From Patiria pectinifera (lineage: Eukaryota > Echinodermata > Asteroidea > Valvatida > Asterinidae), in NCBI GenBank assembly GCA_029964075.1, contig CM057141.1, positions 4,898,001 through 4,962,000 on the forward strand: a stretch of 64,000 bases of DNA. The letters are read 5' to 3'. This document shows, piece by piece, positions 1 through 51,397 of this stretch (position 1 is its first letter; each line of letters begins with the position of its first letter). Made by a program: the position numbers and the translations under genes. The notes beneath the pieces were generated by a model. That model saw only the letters and a list, made by a program, of their open reading frames with translations, searched no databases and was not told the origin of the DNA.

Positions 1-3000
1 TCCAACTCGATTTAGGGACATATATATCATTTAAAGAATTTCATATTCAGCCAAATTTCATTAAAAATGTAAGGCTAACCCCTTGCATTTTTGTCAATTT
101 TCAAAATATGAAATTGCTCCAAACTTCTTGGAAAGACTCCTAAGGGCCCCTCGACCACATTCCAACTCGATTTAGGGACAGATATATCAATTAAAAGAAA
201 TTCATATTTTGGCCAAAATTCATTAAAAATGTAAGGCTAACCCCTTGCAATTTTTGTCAATTTTGGTCAAAAAATAAAATTGCTCCAAACTTCTTGGAAA
301 GACTCCTAAAGGCCCCTCGAACACATTCCAACTCGGTTTAGGGACAGATATATCATTAAAAAGAAATTCATATTTTGGCCAAATTACATTAAAAATGTAA
401 GGCTAACCCCTTGCATTTTTTGTCAATTTTGGTCAAAAAATGAAATTGCTCCAAACTTCATGGAAAGACTCCTAAGGGCCCCTTGACCACATTCCAACTC
501 GATTTAGGGACAGATATATCAATTAAAAGAAATTCATATTTTGGCCAAAATTCATTAAAAATGTAAGGCTAACCCCTTGCAGTTTTTGTCAATTTTGGTC
601 AAAAATAAAATTGCTCCAAACTTCTTGGAAAGACTCCTAAGGGCCTTTCGAACACATTCCAACTCGATTTAGGGACAGATATATCAATTAAAAGAAATTC
701 ATATTTTGGCCAAATTTCATTAAAAATGTAAGGCTAACCCCTTGCAATTTTTGTCAATTTTGGTCAAAAAATGAAATTGCTCCAAACTTCATGGAAAGAC
801 TCCTAAGGGCCCGTTGAACACATTACAACTCGGTTTAAGGACAGATATATCAATACAAAGAAATTCATATTTTGGCCAAATTTCATTAAAAATGTGAGGC
901 TAACCCCTTGCATTTTTTGTCAATTTTGGTCAAAAAATGAAATTGCTCCAAACTTCATGGAAAGACTCCTAAGGGCCCCTTGACCACATTCCAACTCGAT
1001 TTAGGGACAGATATATCAATTAAAAGAAATTCATATTTTGGCCAAAATTCATTAAAAATGTAAGGCTAACCCCTTGCAATTTTTGTCAATTTTGGTCAAA
1101 AAATAAAATTGCTCCAAACTTCTTGGAAAGACTCCTAAGGGCCTTTCGAACACATTGCAACCCGGTTTAGGGACAGATATATCAATTTAAAAAAATTCAT
1201 ATTTTGGCCTAATTTCAATTAAAATGTAAGGCTAACCCCTTGCAATTTTTGTCAATTTTGGCCAAAAAATTAAATTGCACCAAACTTCCTCGAAAGACTC
1301 CTAAGCGACCCTCGAACACATTCCAAGTCGATAAAGGGACAGATATATCAATACAAAGAAATTCATATTTTGGCCAAATTTCATTAAAAATGTGAGGCTA
1401 ACCCCTTGCATTTTTTGTCAATTTTTGTCAAAAAATGAAATTGCTCCAAACTTTTTGGAAAGACTCCTAAGGGCCCCTCGAACACATTCCAACTCGATTT
1501 AGGGACATATATATCATTTAAAAGAAATTCATGTTCCGGCCAAATTTCATTAAAAATGTAAGGCTAACCCCTTGCATTTTTTGTCAATTTTGGTCAAAAT
1601 ATGAAATTGCTCCAAACTTCATGGAAAGACTCCTAAGGGCCCCTCGAACACATTCCAACTCGATTTAGGGACATATATATCATTTAAAAGAAATTCATAT
1701 TCCGGCCAAATTTCATTAAAAATGTAAGGCTAACCCCTTGCATTTTTTGTCAATTTTGGTCAAAATATGAAATTGCTCCAAACTTCTTGGAAAGACTCCT
1801 AAGGGCCCCTCGACCACATTCCAACTCGATTTAGGGACAGATATATCAATTAAAAGAAATTCATATTTTGGCCAAAATTCATTAAAAATGTAAGGCTAAC
1901 CCCTTGCAATTTTTTTATCAATTTTGGTCAAAAAATAAAATTGCTCCAAACTTCTTGGAAAGACTCCTAAAGGCCCCTCGAACACATTCCAACTCGGTTT
2001 AGGGACAGATATATCATTAAAAAGAAATTCATATTTTGGCCAAATTACATTAAAAATGTAAGGCTAACCCCTTGCATTTTTTGTCAATTTTGGTCAAAAA
2101 ATGAAATTGCTCCAAACTTCATGGAAAGACTCCTAAGGGCCCCTTGACCACATTCCAACTCGATTTAGGGACAGATATATCAATTAAAAGAAATTCATAT
2201 TTTGGCCAAAATTCATTAAAAATGTAAGGCTAACCCCTTGCAGTTTTTGTCAATTTTGGTCAAAAATAAAATTGCTCCAAACTTCTTGGAAAGACTCCTA
2301 AGGGCCCCTCGACCACATTCCAACTCGATTTAGGGACAGATATATCAATTAAAAGAAATTCATATTTTGGCCAAAATTCATTAAAAATGTAAGGCTAACC
2401 CCTTGCAGTTTTTGTCAATTTTGGTCAAAAAATAAAATTGCTCCAAACTTCTTGGAAAGACTCCTAAGGGCCTTTCGAACACATTCCAACCCGGTTTAGG
2501 GACAGATATATCAATTAAAAAAAATTCATATTTTGGCCTAATTTCAATTAAAATGTAAGGCTAACCCCTTGCAATTTTTGTCAATTTTGGCCAAAAAATT
2601 AAATGGCACCAAACTTCCTCGAAAGACTCCTAAGCGACCCTCGAACACATTCCAAGTCGATAAAGGGACAGATATATCAATACAAAGAAATTCATATTTT
2701 GGCCAAATTTCATTAAAAATGTGAGGCTAACCCCTTGCATTTTTTGTCAATTTTGGTCAAAAAATGAAATTGCTCCAAACTTCATGGAAAGACTCCTAAG
2801 GGCCCCTTGACCACATTCCAACTCGATTTAGGGACAGATATATCAATTAAAAGAAATTCATATTTTGGCCAAAATTCATTAAAAATGTAAGGCTAACCCC
2901 TTGCAATTTTTGTCAATTTTGGTCAAAAAATAAAATTGCTCCAAACTTCTTGGAAAGACTCCTAAGGGCCTTTCGAACACATTCCAACCCGGTTTAGGGA

Positions 3001-4790
3001 CAGATATATCAATTAAAAAAAATTCATATTTTGGCCTAATTTCAATTAAAATGTAAGGCTAACCCCTTGCAATTTTTGTCAATTTTGGCCAAAAAATTAA
3101 ATTGCACCAAACTTCCTCGAAAGACTCCTAAGCGACCCTCGAACACATTCCAAGTCGATAAAGGGACAGATATATCAATACAAAGAAATTCATATTTTGG
3201 CCAAATTTCATTAAAAATGTGAGGCTAACCCCTTGCATTTTTTGTCAATTTTTGTCAAAAAATGAAATTGCTCCAAACTTTTTGGAAAGACTCCTAAGGG
3301 CCCCTCGAACACATTCCAACTCGATTTAGGGACATATATATCATTTAAAAGAAATTCATGTTCCGGCCAAATTTCATTAAAAATGTAAGGCTAACCCCTT
3401 GGATTTTTTTGTCAATTTTGGTCAAAATATGAAATTGCTCCAAACTTCTTGGAAAGACTCCTAAGGGCCCCTCGACCACATTCCAACTCGATTTAGGGAC
3501 AGATATATCAATTAAAAGAAATTCATATTTTGGCCAAAATTCATTAAAAATGTAAGGCTAACCCCTTGCAATTTTTGTCAATTTTGGTCAAAAAATAAAA
3601 TTGCTCCAAACTTCTTGGAAAGACTCCTAAGGGCCTTTCGAACACATTCCAACCCGGTTTAGGGACAGATATATCAATTAAAAAAAATTCATATTTTGGC
3701 CTAATTTCAATTAAAATGTAAGGCTAACCCCTTGCAATTTTTGTCAATTTTGGCCAAAAAATTAAATTGCACCAAACTTCCTCGAAAGACTCCTAAGCGA
3801 CCCTCGAACACATTCCAAGTCGATAAAGGGACAGATATATCAATACAAAGAAATTCATATTTTGGCCAAATTTCATTAAAAATGTGAGGCTAACCCCTTG
3901 CATTTTTTGTCAATTTTTGTCAAAATATGAAATTGCTCCAAACTTTTTGGAAAGACTCCTAAGGGCCCCTCGAACACATTCCAACTCGATTTAGGGACAT
4001 ATATATCATTTAAAAGAAATTCATGTTCCGGCCAAATTTCAATTAAAATGTAAGGCTAACCCCTTGCAATTTTTGTCAATTTTGGCCAAAAAATTAAATT
4101 GCACCAAACTTTCTCGAAAGACTCCTAAGCGACCCTCGAACACATTCCAAGTCGATAAAGGGACAGATATATCAATACAAAGAAATTCATATTTTGGCCA
4201 AATTTCATTAAAAATGTAAGGCTAACCCCTTGCAATTTTTGTCAATTTTGGTCAAAAAATGAAATTGCACCAAACTTCCTGGAAAGACTCTTAAGGGCCC
4301 CTTGACCACATACCCACTCGATTTAGAGACGGATATATCAATTAAAAGAAATTCATATTTTGGCCAAATTTCATTAAAAATGTGAGGCTAACCCCTTGCA
4401 ATTTTTGTCAATTTTGGTCAAAAAATGAAATTGCACCAAACTTCCTGGAAAGACTCCTAAGGGCCCCTCGAACACATTCCAACTTGATTTAGGGACAGAT
4501 ATATCAATTAAAAGAAATTCATAATTTGGCCAAATTTCAATGAAAATGTAAGGCTAACCCCTTGCATTTTTTGTCAATTTTGGCCAAATAATGAAATTGC
4601 TCCAAACTTCCTGCAAAGACTTCAAAGGGCCCTTTGAAAACATTCCAACTCGATTTAGGGACATATATATCATTAAAAAGAAATTTATAGTTTGGCCAAA
4701 TTTTGTCAAAAATGTAAGGCTACCCCCTTGCATTTTTTGTCCAAAATTTGGCCAAAAAAATAATTTTTTACAAAGATTGCAATTTGGATA
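1..4790. repeat. Satellite array, ~166-bp monomer, about 29 copies
   Basis: The landmark TCCAACTCGATTTAGGGACA recurs at about 161, 327, 493 and 658, and onward at 165-166-bp steps. Each unit also holds TAAGGCTAACCCCTTGCA and TTGTCAATTTTGG. The array begins mid-unit at base 1, so it continues beyond the window. Variant units occur in blocks. A marker AAATTACATT at 381 recurs at 2042, and a CCTTTCGAACACATT variant followed by an AAGTCGATAAAGG unit recurs near 1142, 2472, 2969 and 3634. Units after about 4260 are progressively diverged, as is usual at an array edge. Confidence 0.97.
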
Positions 4791-15400: not shown

Positions 15401-18400
15401 TGACTGATTCGAAAACTCTGAGATTAAATAAAGAAAATCATCATCCATCATTCATTAGTACAAGTCGCTGTCCCTATGTTCATGTTTCGACAACCTGGAT
15501 GTACCGGTCCCGGTTAGGGTTAGGGTTAGGGTTAGGGTTAGGAATAGGAATATGTGCAGTCGGAACATAGGGATGTCGGAACATAGAGGTGTAACCAGTA
15601 CTAATGTATACGATTAAAATTTGCCAGACAACCTCTGCAAGCTCAGCAGTTGCGTGTGGCAAATATTTCTCAACATCCTCGACACAAATGATTTGCTGAC
15701 TGATTTGATAATTTTAATGATTAGACTGCAAAAGGTCTTTATCTTTTATCACTTATAGTAATTCTGTACACGATTAAAATTTGCCTGCCAAACTCGGCAA
15801 GCTCAGCAGCTGAGGGCTTTTAGGGTTCTTTCTCATTGGTTTTGCATTTTGATGACTTGGTGGTACGGTAATTTACATGGCATTACTTCATGCACAACTG
15901 AACTGAAGTTGCAATATGCTAGACTTGAAATCAAGTCGGTAATTGGCTGGGTTTAGTCACCCTGCGCCTCCGCGTACCGCCACCGTATCACCATCATTGA
16001 CTACTGTTTATCGTCCTGGGGTTACGTTAAGCGCGCCGGGAACGATTCCTGCATCCTCGGCCCCATATGCGTGTACATTGCTTCCAATGAGTTAGACCTG
16101 TCAGATGCATGCTGGATGTGTAAACACGATACACGGCGCGAGCACCGTGCTAGTAAATATTGAGGGCCTATAGTCAGACAAAACACGACAGTGTCTAATG
16201 ACTTGATTTCAAGTCTACCAATAATGCTAAACCAATAACAAACAATCTAAACAGTTTTTTTTTTTGGGGGGGGGGTGTTTTTGTTTTGTTACAAGTGCCA
16301 AAAAGCACCCCTGGTTGTCGCAGGTTTGATTCCTAACGATGAAACCATGTACAAGATCGTCATAAAGCACTGCACTGTCAGAAAGAAATAATTATGCATT
16401 ATACAAATTTGACCAAAGATTCACATCAGATATACAGCAATATCAAGGTCTTAAAGAAATCCACCCACGACTAATAAATTGCCACAATTATATCCATCTG
16501 TTTAGAAGTTCACTGAAAAAAATAAAACCATTCCATTCATTCCTCCTCAAAGTTGGTAATCCGCTCATGAAGGACATCTCTCCAATGACATTATATCCCA
16601 GGTGTCACATGACCTTCTGGAGATAATCGCTCATTCTCCAAAATTAAGTATTACCATTCCGGACATGGGGAAACACATGTTCCCTGACATGTATAGCACA
16701 ATTTATGGCCATGATTCACTATGTCTGCTTTTTTTTATGTTGGACTGTCTGATAAAAGAATCTAGGTTGTATGTATCCTGGTAGCCTCATATAGCATCTT
16801 GACCTTGATGGATTTTAGAATGATAACTCGATGTAAACTCCCTAAGCAATGAACTTGAAGCCAGATGGCCACATTCCTTTGGAATAATGCATATCCGGGA
16901 TGATACTTTTGTCATGGGAAATGAACCTTTCACCCTATATCGTGCTTGCCATTGCTGTCTTCTGATGAATTTCCAACTTGTATGTTTTATTATAATGAAA
17001 TAACAATTGTTTATATGTTTTGGGCATCTGCAAACCCTCTGAAACTAATGGCTTTTATTTTCAGTTGCTTTTGCACATGAACATATCTGTCTTCGCTTTG
17101 AAACCAATTCATCTACATGTACTTTGGGTTTGATCCATCCCACTACCAGCCTATTTTTACCCCTCATCAAATCAATGAAGCAAGACAATACAGGGAAGAA
17201 ACTCTTTCACTTTAACACACACAACCTACCCATCCCAGCAGTCAACTGTTCTTTTTAAAAGGAGTGCCGATTTTTTTTTTAATGTAACAACTGTCACAGA
17301 GTTTTTAAGGAAATTTTATTAAATTTATATCTTTTTTTTTACAGAAAAAAGAGAAAAATAAATAAAACCTTTACGAAATGTTCCTTAAAAATGATTCTAT
17401 TGACTCCATTATAAAAAAACAAGCATTCAATTTTCTTTTCACTAATCCACACAATGCCATCAAATATTGGTTACCTCAAAAAATGACCTGTTTCAGCAAT
17501 AGCAGCTACAGCATTTCTGAACGGGGCACAAGCTTTGGGGCTGGGCAAAATTATAATTTCCAAAAGAAAATTTCACCCTTACCCCCAGCCTCTACAGACT
17601 ATATGGACTGAGCCCTCTTTTTTTTCTATTTTGACTCCACTCACTGTCTGTTAAAACAATGGCTGTATTTATCTGCGTTTATGTGGCTATGATCAACAAC
17701 TCAAGGTCTACGGAAATTTCTGTCATCTTAGGCTTGAGGGAAAGGCGACATTTATTACAGGGGTAATTCCGTCACTAAGTGCCCTAAGTGGATGAGAGGA
17801 ACTGTTTATGTAACACCAATAACTGGACACAATGGCTGTCTGGGTCGCATAAAACTGTGAGCCAAAATACTTTCTAACCAAATTGACATTTTCAGTTAAA
17901 GAGAAAATACAACATTTGCAAACATTAAAAGTAAAACTACCAAATTATTTTGAAATACCTTGCTGGACTGTTAGTGAATGACAGTCTAAAGCATCCTGTA
18001 AAATCATGGCACCTGGTATACTGTCATTTTCAAGAAAAGTGGTATTTTCGTATCAATATCCAATGCTGGTCAGTGGTCAGGCGACCAGCGTTGAAAAATA
18101 AATGGCTTTTTTCCAAATACTGGCCCCAATTGACCGTATTTTGTTAGTCCGCATCTGTTTGCAATCGATTACAAACCAATGAACGGGTACAAGCCAGCTA
18201 GACTGTTTCCCTGGCCTATTTCCCATCATCCATAAATTGCTCCGTTTCATCTTAAATTGAGTCAGGGAACCAGACTACAGGAAAATGATTTTCTTGGTTT
18301 TTATAGCATCTAGTCTACAAACCCAAAACGTCAAAAAAGTCAGTGTAACAATATTTACGATATATTACCAACCCCCCAAATCCATCCATTTCTAAAAATG

Positions 18401-21400: not shown

Positions 21401-24400
21401 TACATTTGACGAGAAGCACTGTCTAAATCTCTGCAGCCACTTACATGTATACTGACAGGGCATAGAACTAGCCCTATGGATAGAGTGCTGTGCATGCCCC
21501 CCTCTAGAGATGTCCTGGCCTAGCCTGTAGTTGTGAGGTGCAGCGGCGAGTCAGTCAGCAGAAATGTTGGGAGCTATTGACCTTTTTTGATATTCTCATT
21601 CAAATCAAATTGTCAGAGTCACTTATTTCCACAGCCCTGAAAATTACAAGGTCAGCACCCCTCTAACCAAGGAGAGACAAAAATCCTCCATGATATACCC
21701 AGCAACCAAGAATCTTCATATTCTGTAAACCGTGGTGTGGAGCATAATTGAAAACCATGTGTGGGCAGTGACATATAATTTCATGGTCAAACTAAAACAG
21801 CATGACGTCTACAAGAAATACCTCCAATTATTGGCCAAATAAAAGACACAAATGTCATCAGCACAGAACAGAATTGACATCAGTTACATTTCAACTGTAA
21901 ATGCAATTTGCGCTTAACAAGTAATTCCAAACAGTACTTTTGTTATTAAGTTTCAATTTTGCACTAGTTGGTTTCCATTGAGCATCTAAGGAAGAATTGA
22001 AATTGGCTCTGCTGGTGTTCATCTTTAGTGTCAATAAATGCAATGCAGAGTTGCTGACCACATCAAAGAGCAAACCAAAGGTCACTAGAGCAAATCCAAG
22101 GTAAATTCACAGGGCAGGTTGATCAGCGAAGAGTCGGATTGCCACAGAAAAAAAACACTATTGATATGAGGCTTGCGAGTATTCTGAGTAATCAATATAT
22201 TTTCAATTGATTGATCCTCAGTTTAGTTTGTTATGGTTCCAATGAATTGAATGAACAATTTATATAAGATTATGCTGACATGAATGTGTCAATAACTAAT
22301 CATTCACTCACCTATTCAGAACATTGGTCATGACATTATTCTCACAATGTATGTCTGTCTTTATGTCCGTACTTTCTTGTCAAGAGATATCCGTGGATTT
22401 TGTTTGTTTGTTGGTCACAGATGGCCAGTCTAGCATCCTCTTTTTAAAAGTCTCACTGACTGACCATGGAGCTGACTGACCGACTGGTGCCTGCTCTTTT
22501 TTCCAACACCCCTATGTTCCAACACCCCTATGTTCCAACACCTCTATGCGTTACTCCCGGATGGTTTAGGGTTAGGGTTTAATAGGAATATGAGCATTAG
22601 GAACACAGGTGTGTTGGAACATAGGTGTGTCGAAACATTGGTGTGTCGGAACATAGGGGTGTCGGAACATAGGTGTGTCAGAACATAGGTGTGTCAGAAC
22701 AAAGGGGTGTCGGAACATAGAGGTGTCGGAACATTGGAGTGTCGGAACATAGGTGTGTCGGAACATAGGCGTGTCGGAACATAAGGGTGTCAGAAAATAG
22801 GTGTGTCGGAACATAGGTGTGTCGGAACATAGGGGTGTCGGAACATAGGTGTGTCGGAACATATGTGTGTCGGAACATGTGTGTCAGAACATAGGTGTGT
22901 CAGAACAAAGGTGTGTTGGAACATAGAGGTGTCGGAACATAGGTGTGTCGGAACATAGGTGTGTCGGAACATAGGGGTGTCGGAACATAGGTGTGTCGGA
23001 ACATATGTGTGTCGGAACATGTGTGTCAGAACATAGGTGTGTCAGAACAAAGGTGTGTCTGAACATAGAGGTGTCGGAACATAGGTGTGTCGGAACATAG
23101 GTGTGTCGGAACATAGGTGTGTCGGAAACGTGTGCGTAATCGACTGACTGACACTGATCAACTGACTCACTGAATGTCAGTGTCACTTGTGAGCTGGGTA
23201 GCGTTATCGTATAGGATTACCCCATGGCATTAATGAATGGGCTAATAATCCCGCCCATCTTGGAGACCACATGCATGAAAAGACTTCCAGTGAAAAGCCA
23301 TTCAGAATCAAACGAACAGAATTATGTGCACTCTGGGACCAGCTCTGCTTGTCTCATCTAGTTAGGTTGATTTGGCTTGAGAATTGTTGTTCTCTTGCAC
23401 CTTCCGGAGACAGAACTCTTCAATTTGACTTTGTTGGTGGTCTTCACTTTGCCAGTTTACAACCAACCAAACTATAAGACCGCAGGACACCACTCACTCG
23501 CCTGCCATCTGCAACCCGTCTTTCACCAGCCTTCAAGACGCTGTTATTCCTTGGATTACCCAATTAATATTTAATTTATGGCTCAATTAGGAGTAGCTTC
23601 AGAGCAATCTCAATCTCGAAAGATTCTCTTGAGTCCCCCCTCCCCTCAACATTTCCTAATCTTAGCCACTCACACCTCCCCAAGGGCATTGCTTCGGGCA
23701 TGGTCATGGTGAAGCTGGCACATTTTTATAGGGTTGGATATTTATAAGCTAATATTATCCAACCCTGTGACATATTTCTGGCCCTTTGGAGGACCAAAGA
23801 TTTTTTTTGTAAAATCCAAGGCTGATTGAGAATGCAATGAAATATTTCTCCCCCACGATGTAGAATGACACAAAGCACGAGAGCACATGTGGGCAAGTTG
23901 ACTCAGAAACTTAAACCAACTTTTATTCCTTGTTGAACATTTCTCATATTTTCTCTTCAATCAGATTTGAAGTTATACATTTGATGCATTTTGCCATGTG
24001 TGAATGTTGTTAAGGGCAAATTAAGATTATCTTTAAGCATGCTGATCAAGGGCATATAAGCAAGACTGTTCAAGCACAGTGATCAACGCAGCTAGGCAGG
24101 TATTTTTGAAATGTCTGTATCACAGCAGTGCAGGGTTTAAATGCAGAAGTTAATCATGGTGGTAGTCCTGGCAGGCATAACATTGTAAGTGCTCAGTGTG
24201 CAAAAGGTTTTTAGTATTGCACTCTAGTCCTTTTCCATGTGTGACAAATATCCTGAAATATGCAGAAGGGCAATTCCACGGTTACTCAGGTTACATTTTT
24301 GATGTACTTTTGAGATTCCTTGGGCTGTAATGACCTTACTGAAAAGGTTTTAGTAACTGTTATCCCCATGGTAGATAGAGTAGACCTAGACCTACCTTAG

Positions 24401-28557: not shown

Positions 28558-28652
28558 TTACATTAAAGAAAATTGCAGAAACTTAAGTGACAATGGAGAG
28601 GGTTGTGTGATTAGGACTTACAATCCATCTCTATAACTTCCCTATTATAAAC

Positions 28653-28805
28653 GGGTGCATACCTATGTTCCACAATACCTATGTTCCGCAATACCTATGT
28701 TCCCCAATACCTATGTTCCCCAACCCTAACCCTAACATTCTAACCCTAACCTTAACCCTAAGGATTTTTGGGAACATAGGTATTGGGGAACATCGGGTAG
28801 ACCCC
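28653..28805 (-). mobile_element. Telomere-core minisatellite element, copy C
   Basis: On the plus strand it runs from GGGTGCATACC to GGTAGACCCC (153 bp). In between lie four CCTATGTTCC units, a CCCTAA-type core (about seven imperfect repeats) and one or two inverted GGAACATAGG units. It is flanked by ATTATAAAC (28644-28652) and ATTATAGAC (28806-28814), a 9-bp target duplication with one mismatch. It carries no coding capacity. It is oriented opposite to copy D. Confidence 0.85.
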
Positions 28806-29632
28806 ATTATAGACTGCTGATCATGTGTCCATTACACAACACCATAATGGAATCTGCTCGGTCATGAGAGGTGGGAGGGGCTAACAATGCAAAAGGGGGT
28901 GGGGGTTAACCTTTGACTGTTGATGTGTCTGTTACACAATACCATAATGGATCTAGCCTGATGATGAGAGGTGGGAGATAAGCAATGAAAAAGGGGGGGA
29001 CCCAGTCAATTATAGAAGAAAAGCCTTCTCCATATCATGCACTCATTCCAAAAACAAGGCAAGACGTGTGTCCCCCCCCCCCCACCAACCCTCAACATGA
29101 CTGCCAGTATGTTTACAATTAAGGATTCCACCCCTCCTCCCCAGACACATGGATGCTACACCACATGGATACCCCCCCCCAACCAATCCCCCCATCTTTG
29201 AAATTATTTGATGTCCAAAATCTATGACCAGCAAATGCAAAGTACTCTCCGTCATTATTTTGCCCAGCACAACGGCTTGACCAAAGGATAACCTTGCACA
29301 AGTGACTTGTCAATACAATAAACTACAACTCACATTCCTCAGTTATAAATACAGTCAACAAACACCTATAACCGACACTCGCGATATGTGGACAGCTGGC
29401 TATAAATTCATACCGTCATTTTTATGCGAATTTTTATATTCAATTGAACATCGGCGATAATGAATGATCGCTTAAAACTGAAAGAGTACCCATCTTTAAG
29501 ATATTGTAGGTATCAAAAATGGCCATAAGAATGGGGCGTAAATGTAGCTGCTGGGAACACTATCCTCACAAGATCAAAACAAAAAAAATATTAATAATAT
29601 AATATTCAACAAGTCTCTTTAATCTATTAGTG

Positions 29633-30072
29633 CGGCAGATAGGTGATGGGATTGTGCCTTTGATGATACAAGCATGGCATTTGGCACACAGTCAGTGTAT
29701 GTCATGAGGAAGATATTTGGCTATGGGCCATCGCACATTTGTCCTTTGAAAAAAGAATATAGGTAGAATAAAAAGCAATGGCAGCCATTTTGAAAATTTG
29801 AAAATTTTGAAAATTGCTTGTTATTCTACCTTTATTTTTTTTCAAAGGACAACTCTGTGATGGCCATATCCAAATATGTTTTTAAGGCATACACTGACTG
29901 TATGGCAAATGCAAAGCTTGAGTAACTCCAGCTCCAATGCTCATCAGGAATCGACATATAGATCGAATTCCCGGTGAGCATTCGAGCTGGAGTTACTCAA
30001 GCTACCAAATGCCATGCTTGTATCATCAACGGCACAATTCCCCCAAACATTTCCATTACCTGCCCCACTATA
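29633..30072. mobile_element. Palindromic MITE interrupted by a second hairpin element
   Basis: The left half (GATACAAGCATGGCATTTGG, GAAGATATTTGGCTATGG) is the inverse of the right half (CCATGCTTGTATC). The middle holds AAATTTGAAAATTTTGAAAA flanked by inverted AGGTAGAATA/TTCTACCTT. A related diverged copy lies at 25862-26157. Confidence 0.7.
29915..30003. mobile_element. Inner hairpin MITE with perfect 20-bp arms
   Basis: AGCTTGAGTAACTCCAGCTC (29915-29934) is exactly complementary to 29984-30003. AAATGC occurs on both sides of the insertion (about 29907-29912 and 30007-30012), consistent with a short target duplication inside the outer palindrome. Confidence 0.7.
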
Positions 30073-30164
30073 TTTACAGTGGAAAGTAAAGGAAACAAAT
30101 CTTGGAGTTGGACCTTCAAACGTGATTGTTGGATTGGTTTGTGTAAGCTGGTGCCAATTTATGG

Positions 30165-30352
30165 ACCTGGCAAGGACAGAAATTTGTTAAGCACAAAAAG
30201 TTATCTGCTTAGCAAAAACTGGTTACCAACCAAATCCCAATGTGATGCATATTGCTAATGACTGGCTCTCCGCTCATTAATGCTTAAAAACAGAAATCTG
30301 CTAAGCAGACGCAGCATTCAGCTTAGAAGCACCATGGAATCAGGCCCTGGCC
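30165..30352. mobile_element. Related AAGCAC/TTAGCA-rich element
   Basis: It contains TGTTAAGCACAAAAAG, ATCTGCTTAGCAAAAAC and the end CATGGAATCAGGCCCTGG, a variant of the CCATGAAATTGGGCCC terminus seen at 51653. The left end is unclear. Confidence 0.45.
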
Positions 30353-31288
30353 ATGTCCGCAGGTGTTGGCAATTAGTACAAGTCCTTACACAGTTCGTCA
30401 CGTCTGGTCAATTTTGACGCTGTTTTTTTTGGTCATTTTTTACAACCTCCGACTCCTTGTATCCCTGAGGCAATGGTTTATTAACTTTACTGATCTGGTC
30501 ATTAACACTCCTTCCAGTCATGTAATATCGTGTACTAATTTCATACAGGTGTCGAACCAGGATAATCTTTTGAAGAACGTGTTTTGGCAAAAAAAATGAG
30601 AATTAACGCCGCAGGGAATTCGGAAGCAGGGTCAATTGAGGTCAACTTCTTGGAGTAGTCCCAATTATCAAGCTCCCTGCAAAAACATTTTGTGTTCAAA
30701 AACAAATTGGTCAGCCCAAAACAGCATAGATCAAGACCAAACCTTTTTATGTGGGTAAGAAAGGAACTTTTGAGGGTCCGAATACTTGAGTTTTTTTTTT
30801 AAATTGGAGGCATTTGGGACAAAATGGGGTGGGTTATACATGTTAATGCAGAATGCCAACACTGCACCACTCTGTTGACAATCTTTCTTTTTTTAATTCT
30901 ACACAAGTTAGAATGGGATGTTGAGAAATGCAATAATTTTTAGCCGTGCAGTTGAAGTTACTAACCTTTGTATAACTTGGTAAAATACTTGGACAAAAAA
31001 ATGTGGGGGGTGAAAGAGAAAGAAAACAAACTTGACCATCAGCTTAATTTCAGGCGAGCATCTTCAGCTGTTAAATGATTTGACACACAAACAAAAGGAA
31101 CTGGAAGTGAAAGTAAAACACCCAAACTAAGAGTACAAGACCATCTGTTCTGTCTGGGAAATTCTGGTGATTTTTCAAGTTTTCATTGGACAAGGATTGA
31201 TAGAAGTGTTCAGGGAACATTTCTGCCCTTGGGTCTCAAAGTCAAAGCGGAGGAGTAGGGCTCTCTATATGTCAAGATCATCAAGAGT

Positions 31289-31560
31289 GGGGTCCATCCG
31301 ATGTTATCCTTATGTTCCCCGGTCTCTATGCTCCCCAGTCCTTAGGGTTAGGGTTAGGGTTGGGGGACATACGTACACACCCGTCCCTATGTTTCCCAGT
31401 CCCTATGTAACACAGCCCTTAGGGTTGGGGTTAAGGTTAGGGTTGGGGAATATAGGGACTAGGGAATATAGGGACTAGGGATATAGGGACTAGGGAATAT
31501 AGGGACTGGGAAATATTGGGGCTGGGAAACATAGGGACTAGGGAAACTAGGTATGCACCC
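31289..31560 (+). mobile_element. Telomere-core minisatellite element, copy D
   Basis: It runs GGGGTCCATCC to GGTATGCACCC (272 bp), the reverse complement of the ends of copies C and E. It has two blocks of TTAGGG repeats, CCCTATGTT-type units on the left and five or more ATAGGGACTAGGGAAT-type units on the right. Flanks are ATCAAGAGT (31280-31288) and ATCAAGAGA (31561-31569), a 9-bp duplication with one mismatch. Confidence 0.85.
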
Positions 31561-31845
31561 ATCAAGAGAATGTACAGTCTTCTTGAAATCTTCTCAGGTC
31601 TATATTCCAGGCTTGACCTTGCCTAACTGATACACTCAATTCAAGTCAGGCCTCCTATTCTGGGCAGGTTGTTCTTTTTTCTTAATCTGAGTTCCTGAAA
31701 ATATGCAGCGATGGTAAAAAACAGTTTGTCCACACGCAAGTCTATGAGATATGGTCAACACAATAGCACTGCATGCACAAAGAACTGCAGTAATTGTAAT
31801 TAGGTCTACATGACTGCCATAGACATGGACAAACTAGTTTTTGAC

Positions 31846-31981
31846 AGGTGCATACATGTTCCCCAATACCTATGTTCCCCAATACCTATGTTCCTCAACC
31901 ATAACCCTAACCCTAAAATTCTAACCCTAACCCTAACCCTGAGGATTTTGGGGAACATAGGTACTGGGCCAGGTAGACCCC
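31846..31981 (-). mobile_element. Telomere-core minisatellite element, copy E
   Basis: It is 136 bp, beginning AGGTGCATAC and ending GGTAGACCCC. It carries three CCTATGTTCC-type units (the first degenerate), a CCCTAA core and an inverted GGAACATAGG unit. It is flanked by a perfect 9-bp duplication GTTTTTGAC at 31837-31845 and 31982-31990. It lies only 286 bp from copy D in the opposite orientation. Confidence 0.88.
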
Positions 31982-34594
31982 GTTTTTGACTGTTCTTCTG
32001 TAAAAGGCCGCTATTTCTTAACTTGCTCTTTATTTTCACTATAAAGTCATCTCCTTATGAAAATAGTGATACATCACTGGTACATATATAAACAGACAAC
32101 TTTAAATATGGATGTACATTTGCTTTGTCTGGACTAGATACTGGTACAAATGTTTAGTCTCAACTCTCTCAGTACTATTGTATCAACTGCAGCAAATAAA
32201 ACTGAGAATCAGGTACAGTCTACAGGAAGTATTTTCTCTGACTATTGGCAAATTTGAAATTATGCCATCAATCCTCAGTGTCCTACAGTGACTTAGCATT
32301 GAAAGCCTTTACTTGGATGTATCAATTTGTGTAGGCTTTAATCAAAACCCACGCTTACAATCTCAGTTATTCAAGCCTTAGCAAAAAATCTATTCTTCGA
32401 CATGGTAAAAAAAAGTACCAATATCTGCCCTAGCTTGCAACAGAAACTGGAAAAGCCCACTTTATGACATCCTGCAGGAAAGACTGGGTGTGCCATAAAA
32501 TCATTGAACAGGATAAAATAGAACGCTTTTATTTGGCTTTGAAAACAAACAACACATAAGCATCAAATTACTGGGCTCACCCATGACATTTAAGAACTGC
32601 AATCACCAAAACGCAACAATTTGCAACAATGATTGAAACCAGACTTAGCCAATCCCGAATCCTGTTCTATTAATGAAGATCTATGCAAATAAAACCATGC
32701 AGCAAAGGTTAAAGACAGCCCACTTTAAACACAAATTGGCCAAGAATTTTCCAATAATGCCAGCAAAACAAAATCACATTATTAAGTTTCCTAAATTTAA
32801 TTTAAAATAAGTTATTGGATAATTGGTTATATTCCAAGCACTTAACTCCCCAGAAGACAGTAAAAAAGCAGCGTTCAAAAGTGGTCTAGTGTAGTTTACA
32901 AATAGCTGCAAACAGTGGTTTACGTTCAGATAAATAGATTCAAGTTACAAGGCTAAACAATGTCCCAATATAAAGCTCCCCCTTGAAACAAAAGAATGCG
33001 AAGGCTACAAAAGCACAAAACCGGGCTGGGGGACAAAAATAGCTGATGAAAATCTTGTGGATTCTGATAAAACTTTTGTAGGGTCCTTCCATGGTAAAAA
33101 CCTTGCAAGATTCACAACTCACAGAGACAGAAACACAGACATGCAAAATTGACTTTGATGATAGATATATTGGTCATAAACAGACACTAATTGGTGTGAG
33201 GGTTTCACTTTATGGCGGCACAAGTAAACTGTGCCATAAATATCCCTATGGTCAAATCAGTCCACTTGATAACTCACAGTTTTATGGCCAACACAGACAT
33301 GTAATGTGTTAGGCAGCTTTCCAAGGTTGGCCCCCAACCTCCCTCATACACAATTTAAAGCTGGTAGAATTGGAAACAAATCCATGGGTCATTCTATATT
33401 TTTAGGGTCTAAAGTGTGACATTTTTCATGTCCCTGTTACTTCTAAACTTTTTGATTTGCCATTCATGTTATACATGTAACAATACCATTAAGGAGACAC
33501 ATTATCGTAATTTCTTCGCACGATGGGAGACATCGGTCATTAAGGAGACATTTTCATGTCTCCCTAATGTTACAGCCCCCCTTTAGAAGCAAAATTTTGC
33601 TATCGCAATTATATTTTATATTTTTTTTTGCTCGTGGTCTAATTAGTAAACATACCGAAATTCGTGGAAAAAGGACAAGGAAATATTGGGTTAGGGCACA
33701 TTTAAGTTTGAAAAATTTTGTGCATAAGTCTATGGGGATGTCTCCCAAATATCCAATCCAGGGTAATAATAATAATTATTATTATTTTTTGTGGGGGGAG
33801 GGGGGGGAGACTTTAGTAGTTTGCTATTCATAATCACTCTTGGAAGAGTGACTCCAGAAGTACACAATCCCTGATGTCAGATATGACAGGGACAGAAAAA
33901 CAGGGGACCCTATACCAGAATGTCTTAGATTCAAATGTTCAACTTTTTCATTACACTGAAAACCAAAAACCAGCAAATTAAAGTCGCAATCCAACACTAA
34001 GCTCTGTCAAATCAAATATTGCAAATCTGAACATTGATCGAAAGACTATTTCTTAATTCTTAAGCCTCACTGTTGGGTTGTCAGATGCATTGGGGCCCAA
34101 TAGAATAACTGAAGGGTTTTAAAGTCTTATTCCAGAACTGAGGAAAAGACGAAATCGATCAGTTCAACTTAAGATTTTTACTGCAAGTTGGTCACAAATT
34201 TCACATTTCTTGAGGCAAATCTAGAATGCATTCTTTGAATCAATGTCCATTGTTATAAGAACAAATGTTTAGCACGATTCATGGACCGCTGTTCACCTGG
34301 CTGCATTCAGTTTTAACCTGATAAATCTGACTTATTCCCCTGGAGAAATACAAGAACTGACAGCTTTCTAAAGGCTTTTTGCTTCAATAAAATAATAAAA
34401 ACTGACATATGCATGGAAGTCTGGACTACATTTAGAGAAGTGCTCTGTGGAGTCTGTGCATGGCCCAGTTCTACTCAAATGTGTTGATCAATCGTGTGAC
34501 AGAATGTTCCCGGTGTATTCAGCATGACTTCGTGTAAATGCAAGTTAGATAAATTCTGCCAGAACTGGAGACTATAGTTTAACTTCTGAATTGT

Positions 34595-38559: not shown

Positions 38560-41500
38560 GTAAGTCTTATTTATTTTTCATAAATTCTTCATGATTTCAG
38601 ATGTATATCATAGGTATAATACCTTTGAGTGAATTTGGTATATAAACATCACCGAAGTGAAAAATCAATGCAAATCCGCCGTTACAAAAATATAATGCAA
38701 ACCGAACAGTTTAATGACGCGATAAGAATATAGTGTGCACGTGCTATACCGTTTACTGTAATCTCTAAATTTTAAGCAAATCGTAGTAGCTAATACTAGG
38801 CTGGTATACATGCTAAGCTAACAAATCCTGTTGGTAATTAGTGTTGCTACCGGTGTGTCAATTAGGAAGACAAGCCGGGCAACATCTTGCTGAGATGCTG
38901 ACAAGCGTTGCGCGGTAACAGCCACGTTGACGGATGATAAAGATGATTGAAAATGTATTTTTGGTGAGCCAGGTATATCAATAGAACAACTGTCTTTAGC
39001 TGGTTTCTTTCTCTGATTTTCCCCATTATTGCTAAGGTCGTCGAGACTCGTAATAAACTGTGTAAAGATTTTCATGAAGGGCAAGAACTTGATGCAAATT
39101 TGCGAAATATATACCTGTAAAAGTATGGGAAATTATAAAAGAGAGCCGTTTTTAATTTTGTCTGCCGAGTGCCGGTATAGAGTTGCAATGTTTGCTTTAT
39201 GAGAAAAGGCGACGCTTTCCTCTGTGGACGAACCAGAAACTTCAAAGGCAAGCTTTAAAGCTCCATGCTGAGACTACGTTTTGCAATACCGTCGAAAAAA
39301 ACACACGGACGACCGACTTGAGCGAGTGTGGAGAATCGATGATAGAAAAATATTGAAATCGATCACGGTCTTACTAGGCAAGTAGTTATATTATGAAAAC
39401 ATGAATCAAACGCTGGTTAGAGGAAATGATCGTTGCAGTTCGAAAGAATTTTTTTATGATCTGCATTAACAATATGTTGCCATTTGGAATGGAATTTCTA
39501 GAGCTAAGGCCAGCCCGTGACGGGGCGTCTTCTAGAACTAGAAGAAGACCTCGGACTGAGAGGGCTGCCGTTGTTTAATCAAAGTTTATACAAGATCTGG
39601 GATAATCTTGAGGATTTGAGAAGATTAGGGGTACCATCTTGTTCTGAAAGTAGACCTCGGGCTGAGTGGACTGTGTTGTTAAATCAAAGTTTATAAGAGG
39701 GATTAAGAGATCTGGGATAATCTTAAGGATTTGGGCAGATTAGGGGTACCATCTTGTTCTGAAAGTAGACCTCGGGCTGAGTGGACTGTGTTGTTAAATC
39801 AAAGTTTATAAGAGGGATTAAGAGATCTGGGATAATCTTAAGGATTTGGGCAGATAGGAGGGTGCCTTCTAGTTCTAGCTGAAGTAGACCTCGGACTGAG
39901 TGTAGGGCCTACTGGTGTTGTTTAATCAAAGTTTGTAAGAGATTCGGCATTATCTTAAGGATTTTGGGAAGATCAGAGGCTGTTTTTTACCTCTATAGAA
40001 GAAGTAGACCTCAGGGTGAGTGATTGCAGTTGTTTAAACAAAGTTTATAAAAGATCCGGGATTATCTTGAGGATTTGGGAAGATCAGGGGGAAGGACAGC
40101 AAAGTGCGAGCCAGACAATAACAAACTGTGATAGACAGCTCAAAGTAAGCTTCGGCAATGCCAATGTTATAAACATCATTGCGTGTACCAAGCAAGGACA
40201 CTGGCTAATTTTGAAAATCTGAAGATAAAGATAGTTCATGGTTTGGGGGTTAATTGAAATCGCTGGACTGTTTCCTCGCGTCATTTTCCTGACAAACAAC
40301 TTGACAGACGCTTGGATTGAGGTTTTATCTAAAAGGTCGATGGGATGATTGAGATCAATGGCTTCCCAGGTCGAATCTCGTTAAATTATCCGCTAGCAAT
40401 TAACGCCTGATAGCGCCGATAGATTAGGTTTTACGGCTGTTGTGTTTTGGCGTTTCACATGAAGGCATGGGTGTCCGTTCAATCAGAGAAATCTTCGGCG
40501 GCAGGTCAGGCCGTCCAATGGTCAGGCGCTTCCGATTAAACACGTTGTGTTCTTTCACGCGATGACCGTTTTGCATAATTTCCCAAGCGTGAGAAATCCT
40601 CTGAAGCATCGGGTTGTGTTAAATAGGGGCTAATCACGTTTACTTAACGGTTCCGTGGCTTCTTTGTTACAATTAACTGAGCGTTGATTATTTCTCAGTT
40701 GTAGTCCAGTGCCTCCTAAGACTTGTGGAAACTCAAAAGGGGAAGGCGAATAATACTTTTGTGTGTATCTGTGTGGCCCAAAACACCAACGAATCGCTTG
40801 TTAATTCGACAAAGACGTAGGAAGGCGTTTTTCACAACTTGGTACTCTCTCTTTGTCTGCTCACAGTGGTCCACGCCATGACTTCAGGCTTGTAATGCAT
40901 ACTAGAACGCAGAAGGTTTCAACATTCAATGTATATAGGCCTATATAGCGTGTCTTGGCTATCTTTCTTTCGGCTGTCGGATCAATTGGAACACACAGGA
41001 CGGAAGCAGTTCATACACCTTCGCTACCGTTCTTTGCTGGACGGCTTCCGGCATGGGTTTTAATGAAAAGTACACCAGGTTGTGGGTTTACAACACGCCC
41101 GGGTCTTTTCAGCTCTCACATAATCATTGTCTCTTTTCCTTCCTCCATGCTTTTCCCGATAGACTATACTCAGTCGGTCGGTATTAAACCGAGAACTCGA
41201 CCCATCAAACCCCGACGGAATGTTTTGTTAGGAATCTGTCAGGATGGGAACAGTACCCCTAAAACTGACAGTCTTACACTGGGTTGGCACACCTCCAGAA
41301 TCAAAGTCAGTATGTGCAGTTTTCCATATGTTGGAATTTGCAAGGATGGGTATAGTACTATAGTTCCTAGCATAATCATGCTAGGGAGTTAGTTAAACTT
41401 TTTTTACAAGACCACCCATGGAGATCTACGTGCTGAATTAGAAATAAATCTTTTGAGTTGGATGAAAAACTTTGACATGGTGAAATTGTAATTTGCCATT

Positions 41501-47500: not shown

Positions 47501-50500
47501 TCACATTTGCACTCCCTGAAACCGGAAAAAGCCTTGTGCTTTATTTCTGCATCTTAGATGCAAAACCAAATCCATGAATCTGAAAGACGGATAATCACTC
47601 CCGTTTGATTCTTGAGCTATTTGATGCTTCATTTAGCGTGTTTCTTCTCCCCAAACATTTCTTTCTGGCAGGATTTTCACAAGCCTGGCTGATTCCCCAA
47701 CTTTTGAGCTTTTTTTCATTCTGAGATAACCAGCTTTCCTTTGAGAATGCGAGTCCTTGAAAAGCTATAGGTCCAATCGTAATCAAGAACCAACTTTATC
47801 GGAACTGGAGATAAAAGTTCCAGAAATGCACAACTCCGGAGGAACAGTGTTGCAACAAAGACAGACAGACAAACATGACCTACGGAAATATTCTTCAGAT
47901 TTGATAATCATAGCTCATCACAATGTTATTAATTCTAATTTTCACTTACTAAATGTCCTTTGAGAAGCTGTCCTATGCCTGAAGCTGGTTTCGAAGCCAA
48001 AAATAATTATGGAGATGTCGTTTTGTAAAGCGGGTGGTCGGCCTGGAATTCAGATTTGATGATTTTAATTCTTTCTGCAAACAAAAGGAGAAAGAATTAT
48101 GCAAAAGTTACTTCTTTAATCCGATTAAACCTTTTACTTGTAATATCTGTACCAAAATTATAAAGATGTGAAAGTTATTCTTTGCTTTCAACCGTACATG
48201 CTGCTGAGTTTCCTCATCAAATCCAACTACAGGCAGAGTCAAAGTTTGTGTAAACTTTACAATAAAGTATTGCAATATCTTTATTGTGCATTGTAATTCT
48301 AAAGATGTTGAGAAATTATCCACTACATTTTGATATGAAAAGTGTTGTGATACAATGATGTATTAAGTAAAATAAACAATTAGAAACATGTATTTTGTTC
48401 TGTCAATATGCCCTTTTACCATCAGTGGACCGTCGAGAGAAGTTTCTTCCAAAAACAATTTCTGCCAATTTAGCATAATATCCAGGCATCCTATGGATAT
48501 ATTTAGATTGGAAACCCACACAAAAGCTAATTCAACCGAGGCTTATTCAAGCACTCAAATTTCACAGTCCTTAATCCTCAACACAATATTTTCTGTGCAA
48601 ACTTCCCCGGGAACGCAATCCCTTCAAACCACACAATAACAAGCACCCCGGGCCAGTGCTGCTGCTCCAGTCATAACCTAAACTCACCCACAATGGGCGG
48701 GGAAAATCAAATCTTGGGGGATTTCTGTCGCTTTTCATGGGACTCAATGCAGACTACTCGTGTCAACAAGTTCATGAGAACTTCCCCTAGGCTTTTCCCC
48801 TGTTCGCTAGGCCGTTTTCAGGGCATGATTTTTTTCAAGCTTTTACTGTATTTTATGTTGTATGGGCTACATGCAACAGTCTAACAGGATCACTTTATAC
48901 AAAAAAGGAGCTTTTTTATAAAAGTTGATTGACTGGAACTTCTGGTTGTTGCAAAGTGTTGTGAACTTATTCTATTGGTACACTGCTTAATGCTTATTGT
49001 GACTAGAAGTTGAACATTGAATGAAAAAGTTATATGGGTTGTTCCAAAGTTTCAAGTTATACGGTTTGTTTCAAAGTTGTTCAGTGACACTTACATGTAG
49101 CTGATCAAAACATCCACAAGAAATCTTACAAATAAAAATGTACTGTAAATCACAGGATAAGAGGATTATACAATACTTAACATTAACAAAGAACCCAAGA
49201 AATTGAACTCGGTTTGAAGCTTCAGTGATACACATGGTCAGATTACAGACAGGATCAGTTGTAATATTCATTGAGGAACTGAGAACCAGAACATTTTGAG
49301 TAAGAAGATGCCTTTTTCTATGTAATTTGTGCCATTTCCTAGCTGAAGCACTTACAACATTTCATATTTTTTCTTCTTCTTGCAGATTTTGACCCGACTG
49401 AGAGAACCTTCCCAGAAACCCTTGCCCTTGACAGTAAGATGTCAGCATTTCTACGAGGCAACCATTACACCGGGGCGACCCTTGGTGTTGCCAGGGGCGA
49501 CCAGGTACGCTACACTCAGGGTTACGGGCGGACAGACGAGGGAGCCCAGATGCGACCTACGACCCTGCTACCCATCTCCAGCCTGTCCAAGACCATCACG
49601 GCAGTTTCCATCTTGAAACTGGTTGAGGCGGGCGACTTGGAACTGACCGATCAAGTCTTCGGTTCCGATGGCATTTTGTCATCCTTCCAACCATCAGACA
49701 AGATGGGTATGGATCCCCGTCTCCTAGATATTACAGTGGAGCACTTACTGCACCACACGGCTGGCTGGAGCCAGTCTACACCTCGGCTCTACGATCCCAT
49801 GTTGAACTCTGTCTACCTGTCCAGAGGTCATGATGTCATCGATATCGCCCAGGAGATGAGATTGGAGCATGACCTTTCACCCGATGATGTCATCACCTAC
49901 ATGATGATGCAACCCCTGGATAAGCCCCCTGGTATACAGTATGAATACTCAAACTTTGGGTACTGTGTTCTTGGACGTGTCATCGAGCACGTAAGCGGTA
50001 AAAGCTATGCCTCGTTCATCAGATCACAGATATTTGAACCGCTAGGAATGTGGCATACACGTATTGGCCCCAACAGTTCCTCGCAGAGTAGACATAACAA
50101 TCACATTCCTGTTTTGCATTTCTTTGAGGGTAGCATCCCCTTGTCTGATGCGAGGCCGGATGTCACCGCCAAGTCGTTCAAACTACTTGATTCAACCCTT
50201 GGCTGGTGGTCGACCGTGTATGACTTGATGCGATTTGTTACCGGTCTCACCTCAGGGATGCTACTCAACCCCAAGACTCTGGAGCTCTTGACAAAGCATC
50301 CCAAAGCACCCGTGTCTGAGCATCGAGACACCTGGCATGGCCTGGGTGTCCAAGCTAACGAGGATGCAGCCTGGTGGCAGATTGGGGATCCCCACGACAA
50401 CGAGATCATCCTCTTCCACCAAAAATCTCCGACACCGCCCAAATCCAGACAGTCCAGATTTAGGAAGCCCCCAGCTGAATCCTGGAGCTGGCTGGTCATC

Positions 50501-51397
50501 CTGAGCGACAACAACCGCAAGAATCTCCGACAGACATTTACTCAGACGCTGTCTTCTGTCACTCAGTGGCCCGTGGACAACCTCTTGATTGAAGACTGTA
50601 GTGAGAACCCCATCAGAGGGAGTCAGAAACACTCAACTCTCATGAACTCTCACATCGGCGAGAGACATTTCCCACTCTTCCTCAATGCAGTGTCCAGGCT
50701 CTCCTTCTACCCAGTCTGGATCAGCGCCTACAACATCAATCAGAAGACCTACCTAGCCACTATATTGAAAAGAGACACCGAAAACTCTTACCGAGTCTCA
50801 CACAGTGTGACAAAATCTGACTTAATCAATCTAAGAACAGATAATTTACTAGACAGCATGTTCCTGAATTTTGTAACAAGCTACAATAGTCACAACTCCA
50901 ATGGCAGTATCCGCTACTCCGCCTTCTTCAGTCAAACTCCATCCAGAAATACAAAGTTTGGGATTGGTGAAAGTCGGGATGAGTTCAGCACCTCACTTGA
51001 TGAATTAGCAGGAAAACACATGCCAACAACCCAGAGCGTGGCTTCTTCAGACGGCGTCAGACTCTTCACATACTCTCTGAGTGATCACAAAGTGCACAGT
51101 TGGAAGTCATTTCCAAATCTGACTCTTGATCAGTTGGAGCTGCAGATCAGGACGAATGCCAAGACGGATCAAGTTCTCTCGTATCTGGACTCCTACACTC
51201 ATCATGGGGAAGTTTTGTTCTCTGCCGTCTTTGGCCCAGGTAGAGCTGGAAAATGGCAAGTGCAGACCGAAGTTCGGCAGAATGAACTATCGGACCAGAT
51301 CGCCATGCTTCAAGGTTTGCACTTTCGACCAAGACTAGTTGTGGGATATGAGTGTAAGGGCCGCCCGTGTTTTGTAATAATGTGGAAAAAACACTGA
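38430..51397 (+). CDS. Secreted serine beta-lactamase-like protein with C-terminal BTRD1-like repeats (two exons)
   Basis: Splicing 38430-38559 to 49386-51397 gives 713 residues. Residues 1-28 form a signal peptide, so the protein is probably secreted. Residues about 60-430 are a beta-lactamase/transpeptidase-like domain (Pfam Beta-lactamase, PF00144 type). It has the nucleophile motif SLSK at 109-112, the family motif LLHHTAGW near 164-171, and the second catalytic motif YSN at 231-233. The third motif (HTG or KTG, usually after a YGLGW-like stretch) is not evident after WHGLGV; the equivalent place reads GDPHDN. Residues about 490-713 resemble half-repeats of bacterial tandem repeat domain 1, with ends such as GYECKGRPCFVIMWKK. 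The overall type recalls marine-invertebrate secreted beta-lactamase relatives such as gigasin-6. The substrate is unknown. Loss of the third motif may mean altered or absent catalysis. Confidence 0.8.
38560..49385 (+). other. Intron 1 of the beta-lactamase-like gene
   Basis: This is a 10,826-bp intron from GTAAGT (38560) to TTGCAG (49385). It holds a ~120-bp tandem repeat at 39480-40095 and small CACTGACTGA-type low-complexity stretches at 45085-45140 and 46825-46860. I see no convincing coding exon in it. The open frames at 40955-41392 and 43048-43353 lack recognisable domains and have no codon-like composition. Confidence 0.7.
39480..40095 (+). repeat. Tandem repeat, ~106-120-bp unit, five copies, in intron 1
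   Basis: The landmark GACCTCGGRCTGAG starts at 39547, 39653, 39768, 39887 and 40007. Each unit also carries AATCAAAGTTTATAAGA and GGGATAATCTTAAGGATTTG. Units 2 and 3 are almost identical, so the array has expanded recently. Confidence 0.9.
49386..51397 (+). CDS. Second coding exon: beta-lactamase-like domain plus BTRD1-like C-terminus
   Basis: One uninterrupted 2,012-bp exon follows a TTTCTTCTTCTTGCAG acceptor and ends TGA at 51395-51397. Reading starts upstream of the first internal Met (49439), because FDPTERTFPETLALDSK precedes it in the same frame. It holds the whole catalytic domain and the C-terminal repeat region without an intron. Its base composition is visibly more GC-rich and codon-like than the AT-rich flanks, which are full of stop codons. 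An intron-free 650-codon exon in a gene with a 10.8-kb intron fits retroposition or ancient acquisition of a bacterial-type gene followed by capture of a signal-peptide exon. Confidence 0.92.

Follow-up and report, generated by a model that had tools for sequence, protein, structure and literature searches.

Telomere-repeat cores within foldback transposons, most likely of Mutator type, in the sea star Patiria pectinifera

Introduction

The described systems closest to the elements reported here are foldback transposons and transposons with minisatellite ends, among them Mutator-like elements (MULEs). Internal telomere repeats, the other subject of this study, are widely taken to mark past chromosome fusions or repaired breaks, and fluorescence in situ hybridization (FISH) maps are used to reconstruct karyotype history. 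According to the accessible parts of the papers cited here, Rehavkus is a Repbase group that stands as an outgroup to MULEs or within them, with arthropods and annelids as reported hosts, and target duplications of MULEs are mostly 8–11 bp long (PMC6446971). The Drosophila foldback FB4 has been judged a likely MULE, and Tetris was left unclassified by its authors, to whom most foldbacks appear to be Mutator-type (PMC4079207, PMC8277862). A foldback element of sea urchin is also cited (PMC4079207). Here we describe short elements of the sea star Patiria pectinifera that carry a telomere-repeat core between inverted minisatellites, including five elements (A to E) in a 64,000-nucleotide stretch (C13:4898001-4962000, hereafter the window). 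The original prediction for this DNA held that C, D and E share termini, are flanked by 9-bp direct repeats and carry telomere repeats inside a transposon-like unit, possibly moved by a Mutator-like or Merlin-like transposase. The C/D/E and A/B elements are most likely non-autonomous Mutator-type foldback elements.

Subfamily 1 elements in the window

Element C (28653..28805, plus strand, 153 bp) is composed, in order, of the GGGTGCATACC end, four CCTATGTTCC units, a CCCTAA core (28718..28761, with TTAGGG on the minus strand), two inverted units and the GGTAGACCCC end. It is flanked by ATTATAAAC on the left (28644..28652) and ATTATAGAC on the right (28806..28814), which agree at 8 of 9 positions. 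Element D (31289..31560, minus strand, 272 bp) lies in reverse orientation and is compound, with two telomere cores (31342..31365 and 31419..31448, both plus strand) and an inner copy of the first end, GGGTGTGTACGTATG; judged by this layout, it looks like two fused units. The flanks of D, ATCAAGAGT/ATCAAGAGA, match at 8/9, and a one-base shift gives CATCAAGAG on both sides (31279..31287 and 31560..31568; 9/9). Element E (31846..31981, plus strand, 136 bp) has its core at 31899..31942 on the minus strand and stands between two identical copies of GTTTTTGAC (31837..31845 and 31982..31990; 9/9). The predicted core between inverted arrays of 16-bp units and the predicted 9-bp flanks are present in all three elements. 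The predicted common termini are present as well, with one correction, as the first end of E reads AGGTGCATACA and not GGGTGCATACC.

Terminal inverted repeats, a trait of MULEs, are present in the form of imperfect ends together with the inverted 16-bp arrays. These inverted termini are built of short tandem repeats able to snap back, as in foldback elements, and folding of two copies gave hairpin z values of −6.4 (element C) and −10.9. Among 200,000 random place pairs in the window, 9-bp flanks match at ≥8/9 with a rate of 4.2e-4 and at 9/9 with a rate of 1.2e-4. Telomere repeats gave 33 matches in the window against a shuffle mean of 4.6, and the minisatellite unit gave 94 against 50.5, with 0/100 shuffles as high in both cases. 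The short end patterns alone (≤2 mismatches) are unremarkable in the window, with 14 matches (13/100 shuffles as high) and 36 matches (3/100). Decisive support for the C/D/E pattern comes from the genome-wide counts of ends and flanks.

Genome-wide copies, target duplications and empty sites

The original prediction had proposed a genome search with both termini, extraction of the 9-bp flanks, and a search for empty sites and for a transposase-encoding relative with the same ends. In the 613.5-Mb assembly (1020 contigs), the first end of subfamily 1 (19 bases, ≤2 mismatches) was found at 885 places and the second end (≤2 mismatches) at 1007 places, while the reversed-pattern controls gave 0 and 5. 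Twenty copies were sampled from 100 listed exact first-end places. The second end is recognisable in 18 of them, giving element lengths of 123–188 bp. Pairwise identity among the 20 copies averages 86% (range 70–97%), and the copies read have both ends and the inverted arrays in common. A scan of viral contigs gave 0 matches for the double unit.

In 13 of 21 copies (from the 18 sampled copies plus C, D and E), the fixed 9-bp flanks agree at 8 or 9 positions, versus 1.1% of 2868 flanks swapped between copies, a figure raised by pairs of duplicated loci within the swapped set. By a looser score that allows shifts, 12/21 copies lie above the 99% point of swapped flanks. L040/L041 and L055/L056 are pairs with shared flanks, i.e. 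duplicated loci, and the independent count is 11/19. Six loci were also read from the second end; by eye, flanks are 9/9 in L059, L062 and L063 and 8/9 in L058 (4/6 loci), and those of L060 and L061 were not assessable, another repeat standing where the first end is expected. At these last two loci (contig C7, 41.0–41.3 Mb), the second end is joined to a GC-rich GAGGCC repeat. On C7, the 41.0–41.5 Mb region holds further exact second ends spaced a few kb from one another.

Empty sites were found for two insertions. L050 sits in a repeat whose element-free versions occur in L020 (two copies), L022 and L006; these four empty paralogues have one GTAACACAC-like target, and L050 has two. Five empty paralogues of the L037 insertion have one ATTCTACCT each, namely the reversed window segment 29661..29830 (minus strand), L002, L003, L005 and L007. 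L037 itself has ATTCTACCT on its right and a degenerate copy, ATTTTACT, on its left. The proposed empty sites thereby exist as paralogues in one genome, not as orthologues, and they show insertion with a 9-bp duplication. A 9-bp target duplication, as in the MULE superfamily, is present both in the flanks of the copies and at the empty sites. Around the window paralogue, positions 29625–30041 hold a ~170-bp repeat with inverted copies, which has 39 other genomic places among the best-scored of 2969 candidates.

These data bear on the view that each site is an ordinary interstitial telomeric sequence, left by a chromosome fusion or by a double-strand break filled with telomere sequence. Vertebrate interstitial repeats, e.g. 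those flanked by telomerase-RNA pieces, are attributed to break repair in the accessible part of one study, which judged transposon spread not responsible (PMC8537989). For the sea star such an origin is extremely improbable. There are hundreds of places with common ends, the copies read have both ends and inverted arrays, and 9-bp duplications, empty sites and a fixed core orientation (see below) accompany them; the independent insertions lacking common ends or a fixed-length duplication that relics would leave are not what was found. The ends that these copies share, their target duplications and the empty sites refute the relic view for them, and the telomere repeats do lie inside a transposon-like unit, as predicted.

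A sister subfamily and a third element kind

Element A (15464..15596, minus strand) has a GTCGCTGTCCC end, a TTAGGG core at 15512–15543 and a GGTGTAACC end. Element B (22487..23141, minus strand) has a GTGCCTGCTCT end, a short array, a TTAGGG core, a 16-bp array of ~33 copies and a GTGTGCGTAATC end. Once the ends of L074 (described below) are applied to B, its flanks GACCGACTG/GACTGACTG match at 8/9. A, B, C, D and E all have 16-bp units facing each other around a (TTAGGG)n or (CCCTAA)n core. A and B form a sister subfamily (subfamily 2) of C/D/E with other ends; the units of the two subfamilies are related, and their ends differ. The subfamily 2 end GGTTACACACC was found at 768 genomic places (control 1).

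A mechanical scan for tandem repeats of period 14–18 with an inverted partner, run over the window and L002–L036, returned period 16 only, at five loci (B, C, D, L024 and L025). Each of these loci has a telomere-like core, though that of L025 is imperfect; A and E escaped the scan. L024:2761-3030 (contig C16) is a third element kind, in which another 16-bp unit, GGACCAATGGGACTTC, faces itself around a CCCTAA core; a clear target duplication was not found for it.

MULE loci with 16-bp terminal arrays

A Pfam MULE search of the genome gave 30 places, and nine loci were examined. The open reading frames (ORFs) of L064, L065 and L066 encode 605, 620 and 644 amino acids. All three have a MULE domain (E 5e-11 to 4e-15), and their N-termini are PHD-like (E 7e-5 to 2.3e-4, below the Pfam cut-off). 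L064 and L066 have inverted arrays of 16-bp units on both sides (units CTCGTACCTTGGACAA and CTCGTACGCGGACCAA), and L065 keeps the right array, the left being reduced to 20 nt. L072, on the C-terminal side of the MULE match C7:8857020, has an array of the 16-bp unit CCTATGTTCCGACAGC, the kind found in A and B, and carries the end GTGACTGCTCTATGTTCC beside it. Minisatellite termini as in Rehavkus are thus seen on both sides of L064 and L066 and on one side of L065 and L072. The coding part of L072 is homologous to L066 (31% identity, E 2e-14). As a query, the L066 protein matches L066, L064, L065 and L072 and none of the other five MULE loci among the best 69 of 244 candidates, and all four matched loci have the 16-bp terminal arrays. 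Such arrays were not found at L067 and L068 (5.7 kb each) or at L069–L071 (2.2 kb, one side). Named relatives of L066 come from Branchiostoma, bivalves, a gastropod and arthropods.

The repeated 16-bp units are probably transposase binding sites. For subfamily 2, the unit and end shared with L072 strongly suggest mobilization by a MULE; for subfamily 1, a MULE would be the candidate by analogy. The Mutator-like assignment of the original prediction is supported by MULE loci with 16-bp arrays, one of them with the A/B unit and end. For subfamily 2, the same array and end stand beside a MULE gene on the one side seen; with the C/D/E ends, a MULE gene was not found. Mobilization of the foldbacks by another superfamily that makes 8–9-bp duplications (Merlin, hAT or P-like) would accord with this last result, MULEs being the superfamily searched and the others not searched for, and it is presumed, as far as the accessible text goes, that several superfamilies can give rise to foldback structure (PMC4079207). 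The arrays at four examined loci of one MULE family, one with the subfamily 2 unit and end, speak against it, and we regard it as quite unlikely.

L072 was connected to short subfamily 2 elements by using its array as a genome query (best 40 of 1095 first-look candidates scored). Among 93 non-self matches, 29 begin at query positions 17–22, one begins earlier and the rest begin at ≥28, inside the array. This clustering of match starts places the common end near GGTGACTGCTCTATGTTCC. L074 is bounded by GTGACTGCTCTATGTTCC and, on the opposite side, GGTTACACACC; its 9-bp duplication, TGGCAAGAT, is exact (9/9), it lacks a telomere core, and it has both array and non-array DNA in common with L072. 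L075 has the GGTTACACACC end, a CCCTAA core and, adjoining the core, the same unique DNA as L074 (48 bp, 92%). Element A, and B over the part compared, can be aligned with L075 across the core. In subfamily 2, the core thus probably replaced the middle of a deletion derivative, since L074 without a core and L075 with one, the two copies compared, have the adjoining unique DNA in common. A complete autonomous element of the L072 type would show an inverted array, the GGTTACACACC end and a second ATATTAGCG.

Origin of the telomere core

The 280-kb sample surveyed for telomere repeats combined the window with 200 kb from the 10.0-Mb position of contigs C1–C20 and with 16 kb from contig ends. Six loci (A, B, C, D, E and L024) have exact TTAGGGTTAGGG, all within inverted 16-bp arrays, against a first-order Markov expectation of 0.05 in 264 kb. 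Five of these loci are in the window, and the remaining 216 kb holds one. A telomere array is absent from the outermost 2 kb of eight ends of contigs C1, C7, C13 and C14 (L029–L036).

CCCTAA is on the first-end strand in 20/20 subfamily 1 copies counted (1 to 10 exact units), and TTAGGG is on that strand once, in one of the 20. The orientation of the core is fixed in subfamily 1, and therefore the core was inherited and not newly inserted at each site. Of 26 copies, 18 have ATCCTTA at the inner arm end, and 15 of those 18 continue there as TTAGG. This junction matches the outcome expected if telomerase extended a 3' end, for which one founder event would suffice. The same junction, together with the many variant hexamers, could also result from a core that is not telomeric in origin but arose when arm sequence such as CCTTA/TAAGG expanded by slippage, and so only resembles TTAGGG. 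We consider slippage doubtful, though the most credible of the rivals: the exact vertebrate-type hexamer recurs in three groups with different units and neighbours (subfamily 1; A, B and L075; the L024 element), and L074 lacks a hexamer core at the same place.

Alternatively, the core may be kept for a function, as a G-rich loop that raises mobility through hairpin extrusion, replication stalling or telomere-protein binding. At least one CCCTAA on the same strand in 20/20 copies and the long stems fit such a role. However, common descent alone accounts for a kept core, and the coreless L074 moved with a 9-bp duplication, so that selection for the core appears unlikely.

Two subfamily 1 copies have unusual cores. 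L057 contains, at ~2570–2670, an unusually long and nearly pure CCCTAA run. In L058 the core has turned into a higher-order repeat of CCCTAAGCATCTAA, a pattern that suggests change of the core by tandem expansion as well.

Other features of the window

A 166-bp tandem array of ~29 copies (90% matches) occupies window positions 1–4759, and a 115-bp tandem repeat (2.7 copies) lies at 39593–39902. A long open frame at 49463–51394 encodes a beta-lactamase-related serine hydrolase; related proteins occur in other echinoderms. The frame's product shares 93% identity with a Patiria miniata protein over its whole length and 63% with an Asterias amurensis protein.

Discussion

We consider it highly probable that C/D/E and A/B are non-autonomous, hairpin-forming (foldback) MULE-type transposons; their telomere core probably arose by healing and then spread. 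Each short element would be a deletion derivative, reduced to two terminal arrays of 16-bp units that face each other, with telomere repeats in the place of the lost coding middle. A MULE transposase acting in trans would cut the element out and reinsert it with a 9-bp target duplication. After excision or breakage, gap repair may have been incomplete, and an exposed 3' end in one arm would have been extended with TTAGGG, by telomerase or by copying from a telomere, before it was linked with the opposite arm. The small element so formed would then have multiplied by transposition with its core orientation fixed. In this scheme we infer transposase binding of the units, cut-and-paste in trans and telomere healing.

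Several observations weigh against this explanation. Two of the 20 sampled copies (L044 and L047) are without a recognisable second end, and 8 of 21 copies do not have 8/9 flanks at the fixed position. Of these, three (L039, L043 and L046) show an 8-bp repeat at the ends or close to them, L051 reaches 7/9, and L037, L042, L045 and L052 reach ≤4/9; the failure of L037 is explained by its degenerate left target copy, as seen in the empty-site comparison. The flanks of A are weakly alike (TTAGTACAA / AGTACTAAT). Around L064–L066 exact 9-bp flanks were not found, the 8/9 pair of L064 being seen by eye only. The other arm of L072, of which one array was read, is absent from its guessed place, C7:8859550-8860849 (1.3 kb). 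A MULE gene was not found inside an element with subfamily 1 ends. L057, a candidate autonomous subfamily 1 element, was rejected: the two second ends that mark it on C7, inverted and 2.6 kb from each other, belong to two separate short copies with other DNA between them. As for the conjectured telomerase step, all copies of a subfamily may share one founder, and the in-register junction would then count once or twice.

A broader proposal is that, in this sea star lineage, internal telomere repeats are carried mainly by MULE foldbacks, and that the design of arms plus core was made at least three times (subfamily 1, subfamily 2 and the L024 element) by telomere repair of broken transposons, each then spreading. 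We put this forward tentatively, as possible rather than probable. If true, transposon breakage and telomerase would jointly write telomere sequence into chromosome interiors. With 6/6 exact tandem telomere loci in 280 kb lying inside elements, karyotype inference from FISH could mislead in such genomes. The L074/L075 pair, the same element without and with a core, offers a direct route to ask how telomere repeats enter a transposon. The MULEs in which a PHD-like finger occurs together with 16-bp arrays at the termini may moreover add an echinoderm to the hosts of an animal group that is so far sparsely documented.

Among known systems, the TU elements of sea urchin are likewise echinoderm foldbacks with short tandem repeats in their inverted ends; they have 15-bp units and 8-bp duplications. 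The remaining comparisons were made by description, from the accessible portions of the sources. Phantom MULEs are similar in being animal MULEs with 8–10-bp duplications where these are given and, in aphids, a minisatellite after the transposase gene, but a telomere core is not in those descriptions (PMC6446971). FB4 and Tetris are similar in their long inverted termini with repeats, 8–10-bp duplications and non-autonomous nature; their inverted ends, however, are far longer (FB4 ~700 bp; Tetris ≤1.7 kb with 220-bp repeats), and the available descriptions do not include a telomere core (PMC4079207, PMC8277862). Break-inserted interstitial telomeric sequences have short internal TTAGGG runs too (PMC8537989), whereas in the sea star such runs belong to a multicopy element that has ends and target duplications. 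Rehavkus shares the 9-bp duplication and has a minisatellite before the 3' inverted end and a PHD finger in the transposase (PMC6446971), to which the PHD-like N-terminus of L064, L065 and L066 may correspond. In Rehavkus-1_TC, the inverted termini contain 164-bp tandem repeats (PMC10218199). The sea star system differs from Rehavkus in its 16-bp unit, present on both sides in L064 and L066, its small derivatives with a telomere core and its sea star host. A transposon family with a telomere core was not found in the literature searched, which comprised titles and abstract beginnings and had most subscription papers and Repbase outside its scope. That literature already describes foldback MULEs as well as Rehavkus-type elements whose ends hold minisatellites, and relative to it the new feature would be the telomere core as a regular part of the element.

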